This document shows, piece by piece, positions 37,894 to 46,493 of a DNA stretch of 51,631 nucleotides. The notes beneath the pieces were generated by a model. It was not told where the DNA came from, made no database searches, and saw only the letters and a list, made by a program, of their open reading frames with translations. Location of the stretch: positions 17,594-69,224 of the forward strand of contig PBLQ01000010.1 of the NCBI GenBank assembly GCA_002721815.1, given 5' to 3'. This stretch comes from Myxococcales bacterium (GTDB lineage Bacteria; Myxococcota; UBA727; GCA-2721815). The position numbers were made by a program, and so were the translations under genes. Positions within the stretch are counted from its first letter, which is position 1; every line of letters starts with the position of its first letter.

Positions 37894-38886
37894 TTGCGAC
37901 ACCTCATCTCAACCGCCGACTGGTCCCGCTCAGATCTGCAAGCCATTTTGGATCACGCCAAAGCCCTCAAAGCAGATCCGATCCAGCCTTTGTTGCATCA
38001 AAAAAGCGTGGGTCTTTTGTTCTTCAATCCCTCAATGCGAACCCGCTCGTCATTTCAGCTGGGCATTCAACAGATGGGCGGTCACTTTGTGGCCTTGGCC
38101 CCTGGGAAAGACGCTTGGCCCATCGAATTCAATGAGCGTGAAATCATGGATGGCGAACCTGAGGAGCATATTGCGGAAGTGGCCAAAGTCCTGTCGCGTT
38201 ACTGTGATTTGTTGGCAGTCCGGGCTTTTCCCAAGTTTCAAAACTGGGAAGACGACCGACAAGACAAGGTCATACAAGCCTTCGCCAAGTACGCCACCGT
38301 CCCCGTGATCAACATGGAAACCATTACCCATCCCTGCCAAGAAATGGCATTGGCGCTGACCCTTCAAGAAAAATGGGGCGAAACCGACAACAAAAACTTT
38401 CTCCTCACCTGGACTTACCATCCCAAACCCCTGAACACGGCCGTGGCCAACTCAGGCTTGCTCATCGCCTCCAAAATGGGCATGAACGTCAAACTGCTCA
38501 TTCCCCACGAGGACTACCGACTCGACGAACGGTACATGAATTTGACCCAACAATTTTGCGAAGAAAATGGCCGAACCTTCGAAGTCACCACGGATATTGA
38601 AAGCGCGTATAGCGGGGCCAATATGGTGTATGCTAAAAGCTGGGGTGCCCTCCCTTACTTTGGCAACTGGGAAGCCGAAAAACCGATGCGCGAAAAATCC
38701 AAACACTTCATCGTAGACGAAACAAAAATGGCTCTCACGGATAATGGGTTTTTCTCCCATTGCTTGCCTGTTCGTCGCAACGTCAAGGTCACCGATGGGG
38801 TTCTCGATAGCGAAGCAGCCATTCACATCGACGAAGCGGAAAACAGAATTCATGTACAAAAAGCCCTCATGGCGGCGCTGGTCTAA
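37894..38886 (+). CDS. argF': N-acetylornithine carbamoyltransferase
   Basis: A 330-residue enzyme that transfers the carbamoyl group to N-acetylornithine, giving N-acetylcitrulline. It is not ordinary ornithine transcarbamylase: carbamoyl-phosphate site FNPSMRTRSSF, GKDAWPIEFN, HPCQEMA, and HCLPVRRNVKVTD with the Lys that is carboxylated in the Xanthomonas enzyme. The position that separates acetylornithine (Glu92 in Xanthomonas) from succinylornithine enzymes (Pro) is Glu90 here (DGEPEEHIAEV), so acetylornithine is predicted. Start is TTG 37894 with AAAGGA upstream; the TTG is the start that fits the family's N-terminus, and no in-frame ATG precedes it closely. First gene of the operon, 20 bp before argG. 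Confidence 0.93.
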   Translation: MRHLISTADWSRSDLQAILDHAKALKADPIQPLLHQKSVGLLFFNPSMRTRSSFQLGIQQMGGHFVALAPGKDAWPIEFNEREIMDGEPEEHIAEVAKVLSRYCDLLAVRAFPKFQNWEDDRQDKVIQAFAKYATVPVINMETITHPCQEMALALTLQEKWGETDNKNFLLTWTYHPKPLNTAVANSGLLIASKMGMNVKLLIPHEDYRLDERYMNLTQQFCEENGRTFEVTTDIESAYSGANMVYAKSWGALPYFGNWEAEKPMREKSKHFIVDETKMALTDNGFFSHCLPVRRNVKVTDGVLDSEAAIHIDEAENRIHVQKALMAALV

Positions 38887-38906
38887 TTTTTCTAAAGGAG
38901 TCTTTC

Positions 38907-39989
38907 ATGTCCAATCAACAAGTGGTCCTCGCATTTTCCGGCGGCCTAGACACCAGCTTTTGTGTCCCCTACCTCATGGACCAAGGCTACGAAGTCATTA
39001 CCCTCTTCGTGGACACGGGTGGGGTGACGCCAGAAGAACGCCAAGCCATCGCCGACCGCTCCAAAGAATTGGGGGCCAAAGAACACATCACTGAAAACGC
39101 TGGCGAGGCCATTTGGGATGAAGTGGTCAAACCCTTGTTGTGGGGTGGTCAACGCTACCAGGGTCAATACCCCCTCTTGTGCTCTGACCGTTACATCATT
39201 GTTCGCAAGGCGCTCGAATTGTGCACCGAAAGGGGCATCAAGATTTTCGCCCACGGCTGCACCGGTATGGGCAATGACCAAGTGCGCTTCGATCAAACCG
39301 TACGTTCTCTAGGTGATTTTGAAATCAAAGCACCCATTCGAGAAATTCAAAAAGAACACAAACAAGTTCGTGCCTACGAAGAAAGTTACTTGCGCGAACG
39401 CGGCTTCACCGTTGATTCCAAAACCACCAAGTACAGCATCAATGCCAACCTCTTGGGCGTCACCACTTCGGGCTCTGAAATCGACACCTTCGATGTTCCC
39501 GGGCCCGAAACCTACACCATCTCCAAACCGCGAGAACAGTGGCCCAAAGAATCGCTCCAAGTAAGGCTTTCATTTGAAGGTGGCGTTCCCACCGCGGTGG
39601 ATGGGGAAACTTTGGATGGCGAAACCATGATTCAAAAACTGAACGCACTCTTTGGTGGCTATGGCGTTGGACGCTTTATTTACACCGGAGACACCACCGT
39701 CGGCTTAAAAGGCCGGATCGTTTTTGAATGCCCAGCGATTCACGCCATGATGGTAGCGCATCAAGCGCTCGAAGAATCCATTCTGACCCAAGCCCAAAAT
39801 GCATTTAAGCCTGTCATTGCTCAACGCTGGGTAGAACTGGTGTTCAAAGGTCATTTTTATGAACCACTTAAATACGATTTGGAAGCCGCCTTGCAAAGCA
39901 GCCAATCTCACGTGAACGGGGATGTCATCCTCTACACCGACGGAGGCACCGTCGAAGCAGTGGCCATCGATTCCAAACACATTCTCTAA
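38907..39989 (+). CDS. argG: Argininosuccinate synthase, ending at a premature in-frame TAA
   Basis: Joins citrulline and aspartate with ATP to argininosuccinate. The nucleotide loop AFSGGLDTSF starts the protein; HGCTGMGNDQVRFD and IREIQKEHKQ are also present. As read it has 360 residues, while the family has about 400. The stop TAA (39987-39989) falls where Xanthomonas ArgG, as I remember it, has an Asn; the same frame then continues 39 codons with recognisable ArgG C-terminal sequence (next entry). The ATG at 38907 has AAAGGAG upstream. The missing tail normally helps form the tetramer, so the enzyme may be impaired unless the stop is read through or is an assembly error. Confidence 0.93.
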   Translation: MSNQQVVLAFSGGLDTSFCVPYLMDQGYEVITLFVDTGGVTPEERQAIADRSKELGAKEHITENAGEAIWDEVVKPLLWGGQRYQGQYPLLCSDRYIIVRKALELCTERGIKIFAHGCTGMGNDQVRFDQTVRSLGDFEIKAPIREIQKEHKQVRAYEESYLRERGFTVDSKTTKYSINANLLGVTTSGSEIDTFDVPGPETYTISKPREQWPKESLQVRLSFEGGVPTAVDGETLDGETMIQKLNALFGGYGVGRFIYTGDTTVGLKGRIVFECPAIHAMMVAHQALEESILTQAQNAFKPVIAQRWVELVFKGHFYEPLKYDLEAALQSSQSHVNGDVILYTDGGTVEAVAIDSKHIL

Positions 39990-40109
39990 AAGGCTGGGGC
40001 CGTTTACGCCCAAAGTGCAGATTGGAGCATGGAAGAGGTGCAAGGCTTCATTAAACTTTTGGGGCAAAGCACCACGTTATCCACCCAAATCAATCCACAA
40101 GGAAAATGA
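39990..40109 (+). pseudogene. argG: Detached C-terminus of ArgG after the in-frame stop
   Basis: The argG frame continues without a break past the TAA for 39 codons to TGA 40107-40109. The translation ([19 protein letters not shown], then [15 protein letters not shown]) matches in register the end I recall for Xanthomonas ArgG, including YAQSADW and GFIKL. An internal ATG (40029) could start only a 26-residue peptide, which is an unlikely separate gene. The full-length frame 38907-40109 would give 401 codons including the inner stop and end one base before the argE' start, the spacing expected in this operon. Confidence 0.8.
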
Positions 40110-40110
40110 G

Positions 40111-41232
40111 TTGATTCAAGACGCACTCGAACATTTAAAAGCCCTGGTGGCTTTCGACACACGCAACCCTCCTCGTGAAATCACCACCGAAGGCATCTTT
40201 AGCTATATTCGCGAACACCTCACCGATGATTTCGAGGTGGAAACCGTGGACTTGGGCGATGGCTGTATTTACCTGCACGCGCATCGCGGCACGCCAAAAC
40301 TCCTGATCAATGTACACCTGGACACCGTGCCCGTAGCCGATGGCTGGGAAACCGATCCGCATAAGTTAACCATCAAAGAGAACCGTGCTTACGGACTGGG
40401 CGCCGCAGACATTAAGGGCGCCGCCGCTTTGTTGCTTCAGGTCATTCACGAAACCCAAGGGGACATCGGTCTGCTGTTCAGCTCCGATGAAGAAGCAGGA
40501 CAAAGCACGTGCATTCGACAATTCACCCAACGTAAAAGTGATTTACCTTACGAAAAAGTAATGGTCTGTGAACCCAGTGAATGCAAAGCAACCATCGCCC
40601 ACCGGGGCATTGCCACCAGCCGTGGTTATTTCTCAGGAACCGCGGGCCACGCCTCAGAGGCCCGTGCGCTCAAAGACAGTGCGGTTCATCAAGCTGCTCT
40701 GTGGGCCACCCAAGCATTGAGTTGGGCCGAGCAGCGGCAAAAACCTTCGGTTCAAGAACTCAAAGGGCTGCCCTTCAATATCGGCAAATTCACGGGCGGA
40801 CAAAAAGCCAACATGATCGCCGATACCTGCGAAGTGCATTTTGGGTTTCGACCTTTACCGGGCCAAGATGCCGATGCACTTTTAGAAGAACTTTGGGCCT
40901 GTGCCGCAGACCCCAATCGCGCACGGTTTGAAAAAGGCTTTATGGCCCCACCTTGCCCGGCGCCAGTGATTGGAGACCCTGCTGCCACACAGCAACGATA
41001 TGACAACAACAAAGCCCTGGCAGAAGCCTTAGATATCCCCGTAGGGCCTGCCGTGAGCTTTTGGACCGAGGCTTCACTCTTCTCGGAAGTGGATTATCCT
41101 GTTTTGGTTTTTGGTCCGGGTGCCATCGCCCAGGCCCATACCGCTAATGAGTGGGTCTCTCTTGCGCATCTTGAAGATGCCTACCATACTTTTAAACGGG
41201 TGATTCAAAACACGCCCCTAAAGGAAGATTAA
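40111..41232 (+). CDS. argE': N-acetylcitrulline deacetylase (M20/ArgE-like)
   Basis: A 373-residue metallopeptidase-fold (M20) deacetylase that, in the Xanthomonas-type pathway, removes acetate from N-acetylcitrulline to yield citrulline. Metal-site motifs: VHLDTVP, GLGAADIKGAAA, SSDEEAG (general base Glu), and the C-terminal AQAHTANEW His. The N-terminus (LVAFDTRNPPREITTEGIF) closely resembles the Xanthomonas enzyme as I remember it. Start is TTG 40111, preceded by AAGGAA; the open frame runs further upstream but that part overlaps argG. It overlaps argB by one base. Confidence 0.9.
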   Translation: MIQDALEHLKALVAFDTRNPPREITTEGIFSYIREHLTDDFEVETVDLGDGCIYLHAHRGTPKLLINVHLDTVPVADGWETDPHKLTIKENRAYGLGAADIKGAAALLLQVIHETQGDIGLLFSSDEEAGQSTCIRQFTQRKSDLPYEKVMVCEPSECKATIAHRGIATSRGYFSGTAGHASEARALKDSAVHQAALWATQALSWAEQRQKPSVQELKGLPFNIGKFTGGQKANMIADTCEVHFGFRPLPGQDADALLEELWACAADPNRARFEKGFMAPPCPAPVIGDPAATQQRYDNNKALAEALDIPVGPAVSFWTEASLFSEVDYPVLVFGPGAIAQAHTANEWVSLAHLEDAYHTFKRVIQNTPLKED

Positions 41233-42578
41233 TGCCGTCGGAAGTCCAACCGGTCATCGTCAAACTGCTACGTAGCTTGGGTTCTCGTAAAGAGGTTGAG
41301 CAATACCTCAAGCAATACTCAGAAATCGAAGCCAAAAAATTCGCCATCATCAAAGTGGGAGGCGGAATTATTCAAGACGACTTAGACAGCCTGGTCTCGT
41401 CCCTCACTTTCCTACACCGAGTGGGCTTGTTTCCCATCGTGATTCACGGTGCAGGTCCCCAACTCAACGCAGCTTTGAGTGAAGCTGGCATCTCCACCGA
41501 GATCGTTGACGGCCAGCGGGTCACCTCTTCCGAAACATTAGAAATCGCACGCAAGGTTTTCCAAAAACAAAACCTTAAACTGGTAGAGGCCCTGGAGCGT
41601 TTGGGCACCCGGGCCCGCCCCATTACCAGCGGTATTTTTGAAGCCGATTTGGTTAACGAAGAACAACTTGGCTTAGTGGGACAAGTGACCAACATCCACA
41701 TCGATCCCATCGCATCGGCCATACGTTCAGGGCACTTGCCCATTTTGGCCTGCTTGGGCGAAACGTCGGGTGGGCAAATCCTCAACATCAATGCGGATAT
41801 TGCTGCCCGTCAATTGGCCCTTCGCATCGAGCCCTACAAAATTGTTTTTCTCACCCCCACGGGTGGGTTGCTCGATGAACAAAATCGAATCATCGAAACC
41901 ATTCATCTCGAAGAAGAGTTCGAGCATCTCATGGCCGCAGACTGGGTTTCAGGCGGCATGCAACTGAAGCTCCAAGAGATCAGAGACCTCCTGTATCAGC
42001 TGCCCTTATCCTCATCTGTTTCCATCACGTCGCCCGATCACTTGGCCAAAGAGCTGTTCACCTATAAAGGCTCCGGTACCCTTATTCGTCGGGGCGAACG
42101 AGTTATGGTGCACCAGTCCATGGACACCGTCGATCAAGCACAACTGTCTTCGGGCATTGCCTCTTGTTTTGGGCGTGAATTGGTGACTGACTATTTTCAA
42201 ACCAAAAACTTCTTTCGAGTTTACGCCACAGACTCCTACCGCGGTATGGCCGTTCTCACCGAAGAAAACGGTGTCCCCTATATGGATAAGTTTGCGGTCA
42301 CCAGCCAAGCCCAAGGGGAAGGACTCGGGGGCGCCCTGTGGGCCCGACTACTGGAAGAAAATCCCAAGCTTTTTTGGCGCTCTCGAAACAAAAACCCCAT
42401 CAACAATTGGTATTTTCAACAAGCCCAAGGCAGCTACCGTGACGACACCTGGACCATTTTCTGGGTGGGACTGGATAACTTCGAAGAGATTAAAACTTGT
42501 ATCGAGCACGCCAGCCAAATGCCGGCCACGCTCCAAAGCCATGTGATCGCCAATGCCAACTCAAAGGACGCGTCATGA
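41232..42578 (+). CDS. argB: Bifunctional N-acetylglutamate kinase / synthase
   Basis: A 448-residue fusion. Residues about 35-285 are an amino-acid kinase domain (KVGGGIIQDDLDSL, VIHGAGPQLNAAL, LNINADIAARQLA, WVSGGMQLK) for phosphorylation of N-acetylglutamate. Residues about 300-440 are a GNAT acetyltransferase domain (YRGMAVLTEENGVPYMDKF, GEGLGGALWARL) for acetylation of glutamate. This NAGS/K fusion is typical of Xanthomonas-type arginine clusters and supplies both first steps, so no separate argA is needed. Arginine inhibition is known in the family; not readable here. Coupled to argE' (TAATG) and argC (ATGA). Confidence 0.93.
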   Translation: MPSEVQPVIVKLLRSLGSRKEVEQYLKQYSEIEAKKFAIIKVGGGIIQDDLDSLVSSLTFLHRVGLFPIVIHGAGPQLNAALSEAGISTEIVDGQRVTSSETLEIARKVFQKQNLKLVEALERLGTRARPITSGIFEADLVNEEQLGLVGQVTNIHIDPIASAIRSGHLPILACLGETSGGQILNINADIAARQLALRIEPYKIVFLTPTGGLLDEQNRIIETIHLEEEFEHLMAADWVSGGMQLKLQEIRDLLYQLPLSSSVSITSPDHLAKELFTYKGSGTLIRRGERVMVHQSMDTVDQAQLSSGIASCFGRELVTDYFQTKNFFRVYATDSYRGMAVLTEENGVPYMDKFAVTSQAQGEGLGGALWARLLEENPKLFWRSRNKNPINNWYFQQAQGSYRDDTWTIFWVGLDNFEEIKTCIEHASQMPATLQSHVIANANSKDAS

Positions 42579-43519
42579 AAAAGAAAGTGATGGTCGTCGG
42601 CGGCCGAGGCTACGTGGGGCAAGAATTACTCCCATTGCTTAATCACCATCCAGATTTAGAAATTACGGCGGTGGGTTCGCGCATGCTCGCGGGAGAGCCC
42701 ATTCAAAAACACATCCATAAATTCACGGGCAATCTCAGTTTTACCTCACTGTCACCGGTACAATTAGCCAATAGCGAAGCCGATATCGCAATTTTAGCTT
42801 TGCCAAATCAAGAGAGCGCTAAATTTGTGGCAAAGCTCGATGAAGCCAACAACCCCATGAAACTCATCGACTTGAGTGCCGATTATCGGTTTAATGACAC
42901 GTGGCAATACGGACTCGTCGAACACCACGAACAAGACATCCGCAATAAAGATCGCATTGCAAACCCGGGCTGCTATGCAACCGGTGCGCAAGTGGGCATC
43001 AAGCCTTTCCTGCCTTTTATTAATGGGGTGCCTTCCGTCTTCGGCGTATCCGGTTTCAGTGGTGCGGGCACCACCCCTTCAGAAAAGAACGACCCCGAAG
43101 TCCTCTACGAGAACATTCTGCCGTACAAACTCACCGACCACATTCATGAAAAAGAGATCAGCCACCATTTGGGCACATCGGTCCGATTCATGCCTCACGT
43201 GGCCTTCTTTTTTCGCGGCATCATGCTCACCATCAACATCCCCGTAAAAGAAAAAATTCCGGCCATCGCTGCTTACCACCTCGTCCGTGACTTTTACGAA
43301 AACCAACCGGTCATTCAAGTCCAAGAAAAACCGCCTTGGGTCCGTGACAATGTGAGTCAGCACCAAGTGCATGTGGGTGGTTTCACTTCTAGCGCAGACG
43401 GCACCCATCTCACCGTGGTGGTCACTCTCGATAATCTATTGAAAGGGGCTGCGACCCAGGCCCTGCAAAATCTCAATCTGGCATTCGGCTGGGATGCCAA
43501 CAAAGGAATTAACCTGTGA
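42575..43519 (+). CDS. argC: N-acetyl-gamma-glutamyl-phosphate reductase
   Basis: A 314-residue NADPH enzyme that reduces N-acetylglutamyl phosphate to the semialdehyde. Rossmann motif VVGGRGYVGQELLPLL, LSADYRF and the catalytic Cys in NPGCYATGAQVGIKPF, followed by GVSGFSGAG. ATG 42575 overlaps the argB stop by ATGA; the longer open frame lies inside argB. Its own stop overlaps the argH GTG. Length is normal for the family. Confidence 0.95.
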   Translation: MKKKVMVVGGRGYVGQELLPLLNHHPDLEITAVGSRMLAGEPIQKHIHKFTGNLSFTSLSPVQLANSEADIAILALPNQESAKFVAKLDEANNPMKLIDLSADYRFNDTWQYGLVEHHEQDIRNKDRIANPGCYATGAQVGIKPFLPFINGVPSVFGVSGFSGAGTTPSEKNDPEVLYENILPYKLTDHIHEKEISHHLGTSVRFMPHVAFFFRGIMLTINIPVKEKIPAIAAYHLVRDFYENQPVIQVQEKPPWVRDNVSQHQVHVGGFTSSADGTHLTVVVTLDNLLKGAATQALQNLNLAFGWDANKGINL

Positions 43520-44808
43520 GCGTACTCTGGCAAAAAAACAGCACCAATATCGATGAACAACTCCAAGATTTCATGGCGGGCGAGGATGTCTTACTGGACC
43601 AGGTCCTCCTCCCCTTCGATATTCTGGCATCCATCGCACACGTCAATGGACTAAAAAATATTCAAGTCTTGAGTGAAGTAGAGGCGTCTCAGATCATCAC
43701 CGAACTCAACGCCCTCGCCCAAGAATTCGATGAAGACGAATTCCTACTAGACAATCGTTTCGAAGATGGACATTCCGCCATCGAGTTTTACCTCACTGAG
43801 AAACTGGGCGATGTGGGCAAAAAGGTACACACCGGGCGCAGTCGCAATGATCAAGTCTTGGTGGCATCACGGCTTTACATGCGACATCGGCTTGAAGAAA
43901 TTTTTGATGTCTGTGGCGAGATCATCCAATCCTTTCTCAATGCCGCCCACGCTGGTGAAAAGGTCGCGATGCCAGGGTACACGCACCTACAAAGAGCGGT
44001 GCCTTCGAGTGTGGGCATGTGGGCCGCCAGCTTCGCGGAAAGCTTTTTGGATAATGCACTGGGGCTGATGCAGTGTTTTGATATTATCAACTGCAGCCCT
44101 CTGGGCACCGCAGCGGGCTACGGCGTGAATCTACCTCTGGACCGTGAACACGTCGCTGAAGCGTTGGACTTTGATCGCTTACAGGTCAATCCCATGTATG
44201 CGCAAAACAGTCGTGGTAAATTTGAGCTGCAAGCCCTCAACGCGCTCAGTTTTTGTTTAATGGACGTTCGACGACTTTCGTGGGACTTATCTCTCTTTAC
44301 CACCGCCGAATACGACTTTGTCACACTGCCCAACACTTACACCACGGGTTCATCCATTATGCCTAACAAGCGTAATCCTGATGTGGTGGAGTTATTGCGT
44401 GCAGCAGTGTCCCCCTTGTTGGGCGCCACCAACGAAATCGCATCGTTGCTCTCTTTACCCAGTGGCTATCAACGCGACCTTCAAGGCACCAAAGGCCCCT
44501 TCATTCGCAACATGGAAAGTGGCCTTAAAGCATTGCGCCTCATTCCTGCCCTCGTCGACAACCTGGAGTGGGACAAAGAAAAAATGACCGCTGCCATTTC
44601 AGCTGACATGTACGCCACCGATCGCGCGGTGGAGCTCACATCTTCAGGCGTACCCTTTCGGGATGCCTACCGCCAAGTGGGTGATGAACTCGAGCAATTA
44701 GAAAAACGCGATCCCCAACAAAGTTTGGCCGATCGCGTTTCCTTGGGTGGCCCAGGTAATTTGGGCCTCGATATTTTACAAAATCGCTACAAAGAGCTTT
44801 TTGGTTAA
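43516..44808 (+). CDS. argH: Argininosuccinate lyase
   Basis: A 430-residue enzyme that splits argininosuccinate into arginine and fumarate, the last step of the pathway. Family signatures: DGHSAIEFYL, HTGRSRNDQVL, HLQRAVPSS, TAAGYGVNL and the signature loop GSSIMPNKRNPD. Start is GTG 43516, overlapping the argC stop; no ATG nearby fits better. Last gene of the operon; it converges with the aminomutase gene, and their ends overlap by four bases. Confidence 0.96.
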   Translation: MSVLWQKNSTNIDEQLQDFMAGEDVLLDQVLLPFDILASIAHVNGLKNIQVLSEVEASQIITELNALAQEFDEDEFLLDNRFEDGHSAIEFYLTEKLGDVGKKVHTGRSRNDQVLVASRLYMRHRLEEIFDVCGEIIQSFLNAAHAGEKVAMPGYTHLQRAVPSSVGMWAASFAESFLDNALGLMQCFDIINCSPLGTAAGYGVNLPLDREHVAEALDFDRLQVNPMYAQNSRGKFELQALNALSFCLMDVRRLSWDLSLFTTAEYDFVTLPNTYTTGSSIMPNKRNPDVVELLRAAVSPLLGATNEIASLLSLPSGYQRDLQGTKGPFIRNMESGLKALRLIPALVDNLEWDKEKMTAAISADMYATDRAVELTSSGVPFRDAYRQVGDELEQLEKRDPQQSLADRVSLGGPGNLGLDILQNRYKELFG

Positions 44809-46211
44809 ATGTAACGGGCTTTGGCAGTTTGCACCACGTCGTTAAGCATTTCTTCTCGCTTCACGGGGTTGTGCCAAGCTTCTTGGATATCTGGGTTCAG
44901 GCTTCGAAGTGGATCGAAGTACGTGAAGAATTCACCCTTTTTTACCGCGGGTGCCGTGTAAACAGAGATGCCCGTTTCACGATCATAATGCTCATAACTG
45001 TGAGCGTCACGCTTACCACCACCACCGGGGGCATCCACCACAAACAGTGGGGTGTTGAACCCTGCTGTGGCGCCGCGCACTCTTTTTTCAACCCGAATGG
45101 CAGTGGCCACCATGGTTCTCAAATCTTCGGTGCCTTGAACCAAATCGTGAACATAAACATAGTAAGGGTGGACGTTGATATAGCCCAGTCGTCGCACCAA
45201 CTCCGTCATTTGGTCAGGATCGTCATTAACACCTCGTTGAAACACCGATTGGTTTCGAACCGTAATGCCTCTTTCAAAAAGCAGATTCATCGCGTCCTGA
45301 GAAATACCGGTGACCTCATTGGCAGTGTTAAAGTGTGTGTGAATAACAACTTCTTTGTGCATCTTGCGACCGCGATCTGTCACTTCGGTAACCGCATCCA
45401 CCCAGTCCGTGTCCGTGAGGATTTTCATGGGCTGAATGGCCAAACCTTTGGTGGCAAATCGAAATCTACGAATGTGTGGAATGTCCAAAAGTGCGTGACC
45501 AATTTCTCGAATTTGATCTGGCTTGAGTCGGTACATGTCCCCACCACTGATGACGACATCCTCTAACTCTTTTCGTTCACGCATATATTTAAACGCAAGT
45601 GCCCAGCGCTCTTCATTCGCTTTGAGTTGCACCTTCTCAACGGTTTCAGTATCGAGGCCTACCGCATAAGAACGCGTACAAAAGCGACAATAAACGGGGC
45701 AGGTGTCCAAGGTCAGAAAAAGGGCTTTATCAGGGTAACGATGGGTCAACCCTTTGGTTGGCGAATCCTCTTGCTCGTGCAACGAGTCCAATGTGAGCAT
45801 GGGGTGATCGGGTTCCAACTGGGAGCCCACGGGCAAAAACTGCCGCCGAATGGGGTCGTTATAAGGATCTTCCCAATCGATAAGGGCCAAAGCATACGGA
45901 GAGATACGAACGGCCATGGGCGCGGCCGCAAAACCAGCTTTGACATCTTCGATAAATTCGGGCGAAGCGATGTCTTGAACCGCTTTAATGAGTTTCTTTG
46001 GATTGGTAATTGCGTTTCTTTCCTGCCACTTAGAGCTAATGAAAGTCTCGTAATCCACTTCTTTCCAACCAGGAATGTTCTGCCAAAACGCATCTCGGCG
46101 CAATTCCCGCCAAGTGATGCTTTCCTCGGCCACCTTTGGTCGTAAGTGCTTAATTGGGTCATCACCACCAATTTTAATGGTGCTGTCATCGATTTGGACT
46201 TCATTCATCAT
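44805..46211 (-). CDS. kamA: Lysine 2,3-aminomutase-type radical SAM enzyme
   Basis: A 468-residue enzyme. Radical SAM cysteines C171, C175, C178 (TCPVYCRFCTRS), SGGD motif after them, and the PLP site Lys in VVDAPGGGGK. The two Asp residues known to bind the lysine side-chain amine in clostridial aminomutase have counterparts (YVYVHDLVQG and FVVDAPGGGGK), which favours lysine as substrate and beta-lysine as product, for osmoprotectant or catabolic use. It is longer than EpmB-type proteins. ATG 46211 is preferred: GGAGG stands five bases upstream; the earlier open frame lacks a ribosome site and is Phe/Leu-rich. Convergent with argH. Confidence 0.85.
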   Translation of the reverse strand: MMNEVQIDDSTIKIGGDDPIKHLRPKVAEESITWRELRRDAFWQNIPGWKEVDYETFISSKWQERNAITNPKKLIKAVQDIASPEFIEDVKAGFAAAPMAVRISPYALALIDWEDPYNDPIRRQFLPVGSQLEPDHPMLTLDSLHEQEDSPTKGLTHRYPDKALFLTLDTCPVYCRFCTRSYAVGLDTETVEKVQLKANEERWALAFKYMRERKELEDVVISGGDMYRLKPDQIREIGHALLDIPHIRRFRFATKGLAIQPMKILTDTDWVDAVTEVTDRGRKMHKEVVIHTHFNTANEVTGISQDAMNLLFERGITVRNQSVFQRGVNDDPDQMTELVRRLGYINVHPYYVYVHDLVQGTEDLRTMVATAIRVEKRVRGATAGFNTPLFVVDAPGGGGKRDAHSYEHYDRETGISVYTAPAVKKGEFFTYFDPLRSLNPDIQEAWHNPVKREEMLNDVVQTAKARYI

Positions 46212-46227
46212 CAGGTCCTCCGTAAAT

Positions 46228-46256
46228 ATCATGCTAAAAAGAGTGAAAAGGTGCAA
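46228..46256 (-). promoter_or_regulatory. Promoter of the aminomutase gene (predicted)
   Basis: On the minus strand TTGCAC (46256-46251) and CATGAT (46233-46228) are 17 bases apart and lie upstream of the ribosome site. Directly upstream is the palindrome TTCGTACGAA (46265-46274), a candidate regulator site. Confidence 0.4.
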
Positions 46257-46493
46257 AAAAACCGTTCGTACGAATACGATGCGCTTTATAACCACTTGTT
46301 TTTTAGGGAATTTGTGGAAATCGCGCGCTAAGCGCGACGAACGTCGGGGGCGTGAAAAATGTTCGTATTAAACCACATAATAAGACTGTAGCGATGCTTC
46401 CTCGCACATGCAAGCCCTCTGGAGTGACACATTTGCAACCTTTTCAACGCACTGCACAAGCTAAAGTTATTGGCTTTTTGGCCGATTCAAGTC
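46257..46493. other. Intergenic region between kamA and tRNA-Asn
   Basis: No gene supported. Contains the palindrome TTCGTACGAA (46265-46274) and a small hairpin (TCGCGC-gctaa-GCGCGA, 46321-46337) without a T-run. Confidence 0.4.

Follow-up and report, generated by a model that had tools for sequence, protein, structure and literature searches.

Bacterial genes are described as widely affected by short-lived in-frame stop codons (Belinky et al. 2021, PMC7918605), and the gene for argininosuccinate synthase, argG, has itself been recorded as broken in Sodalis glossinidius, where it was earlier called a pseudogene and arginine auxotrophy was predicted (PMC6315101). Here we analyse an argG frame interrupted by one TAA in a 51,631 bp stretch of a Myxococcales draft genome (assembly GCA_002721815.1, contig PBLQ01000010.1, positions 17,594 to 69,224 of the forward strand; hereafter the window). 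As in the cases treated by Belinky et al., a single, apparently young stop lies in an otherwise intact and conserved gene; compared with the stops presented in that report, the one in the window is seen in a single genome. The Sodalis gene differs in that, by the account given in PMC6315101, a fragment of almost full length has been newly annotated and lack of arginine reduces growth without abolishing it. The stop studied here is thus ordinary, in-frame stops of this kind having already been described for bacteria. The explanation that we favor, with a probability of roughly 0.55, is that the single argG of this genome has very recently acquired a nonsense mutation.

The frame at 38907-40109 on the forward strand encodes argininosuccinate synthase and, from the reading of open frames in the window, is open throughout except for one internal TAA at 39987-39989, which is codon 361 of 400; its terminal stop is the TGA at 40107-40109. 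The truncated reading frame (38907-39989) has 360 codons followed by TAA and takes in the HUP domain at the N-terminus and, C-terminal to it, most of the synthetase domain. The remainder, 39990-40109 (39 codons and the TGA), corresponds to the C-terminal loop and helix of ArgG. PF00764, the N-terminal HUP domain, matches the product upstream of the stop with 122.8 bits (cut-off 27). PF20979 (Arginosuc_syn_C) breaks off at profile position 184 of 219 when the product is taken without its tail; with X in place of the stop, the match covers residues 176-388 and profile positions 1-215 of 219, spanning the TAA, and the whole-genome search with this profile likewise lists the argG match with "1 TAA" within it. 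Because the match continues over the stop, the likeness of the tail to ArgG is beyond chance, and on this profile evidence the 39 codons read as the genuine ArgG C-terminus. The best-scoring model for the product is the argininosuccinate synthase family NF003385 (PRK04527), which aligns over positions 1-360 of 401; the product is shorter than the family and ends at the stop. Its score, 549.2 bits against a cut-off of 603, falls below the threshold for a full-length equivalog, as does that of TIGR00032 (254.1 against 268.2).

To place the stop among related proteins, the frame was aligned, with X at the stop, to 85 homologue rows: five loci from a whole-genome search (L003-L007) and the best 80 of 594 confirmed contig matches. 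L005 and L070 are apparently the same record, which leaves 84 distinct rows. At the stop column each of the 85 rows carries a residue, and each extends past it for a full-length protein (one of them reaches the end of its DNA before any stop codon). In a second, broader set (29 relatives, with L003-L007 common to both) a letter again stands at this column in every case. The stop therefore truncates a gene that is intact in relatives, as is characteristic of a nonsense pseudogene. The first-pass annotation had described an argG open but for one TAA and followed by an ArgG-like tail in register, a description that the frame, the PF20979 match across the stop and the 85 rows all bear out; homologues ending at the same place without the tail, which would have spoken against it, are absent from the alignment. 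It had further placed asparagine at the position of the TAA. This holds for the majority of rows (N in 58, Q in 7, R in 6, K in 5, H in 4, S in 2, and L, E and V in one each), but not for the nearest relatives (L003-L007 and L063-L068), which carry K, Q, R, H, L or E.

The source genome (4.60 Mb in 74 contigs, 98.28% complete, 2.61% contamination) holds a single argG: PF00764, PF20979 and the DNA surrounding the TAA were each located at one genome site only, so the search for a second copy proposed by the first-pass annotation came back empty, and no alternative contig of the argG region was found in the assembly. In a sample of 829,331 bases, made up of the window and 39 of 40 further stretches, the ends of 511 genes predicted by a simple codon-usage script comprise 288 TAA (that of argG included), 115 TGA and 108 TAG, which makes TAA the commonest stop. 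A tRNA search in which 150 of 191 candidates were scored gave 32 matches, typed with ARAGORN; no ochre-suppressor tRNA (anticodon TTA) is among them, in a list that lacks Tyr and Ile tRNAs and is to that extent incomplete. PF00472 is found at three places in the genome, in frames of 354, 380 and 145 codons, of which the first two look like release factors RF1 and RF2 and the third like a small relative. The predominance of TAA among the gene ends, the absence of a suppressor tRNA from the typed set and the release-factor genes together make the genetic code look standard, with UAA as the main stop. On these observations, including the incomplete tRNA list, a variant code or reassignment of the stop codon was rejected. 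Recoding as selenocysteine or pyrrolysine would require an in-frame TGA or TAG, and the codon here is TAA. More generally, when 191 prokaryotic genomes were screened for conserved residues encoded by stop codons, one novel selenoprotein was reported but no candidate that held promise of an additional amino acid (PMC1914089).

What the stop removes can be judged from the human enzyme. Human ASS1 is described as comprising a nucleotide-binding domain, a synthetase domain (residues 173-371) and, after an extended loop, a C-terminal helix region (372-412) that serves oligomerisation; loop residues 375-378 adjoin the mouth of the active site of the neighboring subunit, and the substitutions Val375Leu, Ser376Arg and Met377Ile are listed there as amorphic (PMC13289927). 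Human numbering was transferred by aligning argG to the homologue L026 and L026 to 2nz2, in which the chain number equals the residue number plus one, as judged from the position of Met377. On this basis the stop corresponds to human residue 370 and codons 365-368 to human residues 375-378, so that both these codons and the oligomerisation helix lie past the TAA. A365, Y367, A368, Q369 and W373 are identical in all 85 homologue rows. For the read-through protein, the top-ranked of five AlphaFold2 models (mean pLDDT 76.2 and pTM 0.77, the other four with pLDDT from 65.5 to 54.6) puts the last strand of the body at 348-355 and the stop in the loop that follows; the helices predicted at 375-385 and 390-395, in a tail of low confidence (pLDDT about 51 and lower over the last 40 residues), would be lost. 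Because the loop and helix serve oligomerisation and approach the active site of the neighbor in human ASS1, the truncated enzyme is, by homology, probably dead. Complete loss of the gene has a described consequence in Escherichia coli, where argG deletions are reported not to grow without arginine (PMC6315101).

If the TAA is a real base of the organism, translation would terminate in the ordinary way at codon 361, and the segment at 39990-40109 would probably not be translated as part of ArgG. The product would retain its ATP-binding domain and the greater part of the synthetase domain, without the C-terminal loop and the oligomerisation helix, and for this reason no working tetramer would be expected. 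The carrier cell would then need arginine from outside while the neighboring arg genes persist. The conditional arginine auxotrophy suggested by the first-pass annotation accordingly gains support from the single copy of argG and the loss of an arm that is probably required, but stands only if the base is real.

The same annotation had spoken of a gene in decay. A recent nonsense lesion fits, the rest of the gene being intact; the decay itself is not significant. Taking as near-invariant those positions where the majority residue is shared by all of the 85 rows or by all but one, the tail keeps 14 of 16 (the exceptions are A378, changed to V, and E379, changed to Q). When the homologues were treated alike, two tail departures were found in one of 85 (L141, which is intact), and none had more. 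Identity of the tail minus that of the body is second-lowest for the window among 86 rows. In a branch-rate test, with the tree of the body fixed and the tail branch of the window free, the best factor was 2, with 2dlnL of 4.2; 14 of 15 controls gave 0 to 2.98, partly towards slower tails. As intact L141 (in identity and in near-invariant positions) and intact L074 (in branch rate) deviate as far as the window does, these comparisons of sequence are suggestive at most of a slight relaxation of the tail, which is not significant. With 14 of 16 near-invariant positions kept in the tail and no lesion in the neighboring arg genes, the stop is either young or an artefact of assembly or strain consensus; in short, the lesion is young or not real. 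The 57 relative genomes returned include no member of the same family or genus, and the stop is for this reason not datable against a near relative.

Several points weigh against a recent nonsense allele. The TAA is known from the sequence of a draft assembly alone. Departures from near-invariant positions number 2 of 16 in the tail and 4 of 123 in the body, a difference that shows no significant decay (Fisher p 0.14). Finally, the remaining control of the branch-rate test, intact L074, gave a factor of 3 (5.06), above that of the window.

The first of these points leads to the alternative that we regard as a serious if lesser possibility, and which the first-pass annotation had raised as an assembly error, namely that the consensus carries TAA through an erroneous base or from a minority strain, the organism making full-length ArgG. 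The draft nature of the assembly, which is probably a metagenome bin and carries some contamination, speaks for it, as do a lone lesion amid arg genes that otherwise have none, a conserved tail with no significant relaxation and a stop that recurs in none of the homologues. Against it, the assembly contains neither a second copy nor an alternative contig of the region, and there is little sign of generally faulty sequence. A filter for stops whose downstream frame looks coding and has no early start codon passed 12 of the 511 sampled stops; ten of these, that of argG among them (all save L168 and L169), were scanned against Pfam with the stop read as X, and a listed domain spanned the stop in argG alone. 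One of the nine other genes matched no family at all. Another of the sampled stops belongs to a 754-codon gene of RCC1 repeats (L185:12786-15149), whose frame runs on for 33 linker-like codons past its TAA; no listed Pfam domain spans that TAA.

Read-through of the stop, also raised by the first-pass annotation, would have UAA decoded often enough to yield useful amounts of full-length ArgG, with the stop lowering the dose. The tail is still largely conserved, the base after the TAA is A, and the terminator of argG itself is a different codon (TGA). Conserved read-through would show as a stop at the equivalent site in homologues, however, and none of the 85 rows has one; TAA ends most of the sampled genes, release-factor genes are present, and the 32 typed tRNAs, with the gaps noted above, include no TTA anticodon. 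The RNA past the stop folds no better than its shuffles (z -0.33), 63 of 200 of which equal or surpass it. The proposal thus found no positive support, and we consider it unlikely. Still less credible is its more particular form, a species-specific, dose-lowering read-through of UAA under the standard code and in the sole copy of argG, at the joint between synthetase domain and oligomerisation arm, in which short and full-length subunits could co-assemble.

That the 360-residue product suffices alone, the lineage having shed its C-terminal arm, is very improbable: the changes at near-invariant positions 378 and 379 could mean weaker constraint, but the arm is kept in all 85 homologue rows with its 16 near-invariant positions, the loop residues are described as needed in human ASS1 (PMC13289927), and the rest of the tail in the window is still ArgG-like. 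A split gene with a re-start was rejected by inspection: the tail has no ATG, GTG or TTG in its first 13 codons, and a start at codon 375, the earliest available, would give 26 residues without the conserved loop.

The gene lies in an arginine operon (37894-44808) of the type that has an N-acetylornithine carbamoyltransferase, and the operon includes a kinase / N-acetyltransferase fusion; all its genes are on the forward strand. Upstream is argF', for N-acetylornithine carbamoyltransferase (37894-38886; NF003384, 540 bits, cut-off 288, profile 3-332 of 336). Downstream follow an argE-type deacetylase (40111-41232; NF006439, 461 bits, cut-off 345, profile 5-363 of 364), the acetylglutamate kinase / N-acetyltransferase fusion argAB (41232-42578; AA_kinase and NAT domains, NF003387, 657.4 bits, cut-off 426), argC (42497-43519, counted from the mechanical start of the open frame, the true start likely lying further in; TIGR01850, 290.4 bits, cut-off 233.6) and argH, for argininosuccinate lyase (43516-44808; TIGR00838, 310.6 bits, cut-off 279.5, profile 9-396 of 455). 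All five frames are open and match their NCBIfam models above the cut-offs, no lesion being seen in argF', argE, argAB or argC; within the operon, an evident lesion is confined to argG. The last 32 or so residues of argH are left uncovered by TIGR00838, and Pfam ASL_C2 scores under its cut-off, which indicates a short or diverged C-terminus. For argE we chose the TTG at 40111, directly after the TGA of argG, as start; the mechanical open frame begins at 39922. The TAA, about 120 bases upstream, may also weaken translation of argE.

The order and strand of argF', argE and argAB around argG are shared in 67 of 80 homologue loci, some of which are cut short; for this count, positions were inspected for eight loci. 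Loci titled Lysobacter, Stenotrophomonas and Xanthomonas have the same order of argF', argG, argE and argAB, and an exchange of the arginine operon between the myxobacterial group and these genera is possible. Convergent with argH, on the reverse strand at 44805-46295, is a KamA-family radical SAM protein (TIGR00238, 226.8 bits, cut-off 199.2; the match covers residues 74-424 of 496 and leaves about 70 unmatched residues at each end).

Among the 57 relatives, 32 have a near-full-length PF00764 match and 25, some of them small or incomplete genomes, have none; absence of argG recurs in the phylum. Four genomes of one family (G018, G035, G041 and G047 of f8; 5.0 to 7.7 Mb, 90 to 98% complete) give no ArgG match either by protein or by PF00764.

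The stop in argG leaves the picture of the genetic code unchanged. It does warn that the presence of a gene is insufficient by itself to call a pathway complete. If the base is real, the window would add a further example of an amino-acid pathway captured at the first step of its loss, with apparently sound neighboring arg genes and one codon making the cell dependent on arginine.
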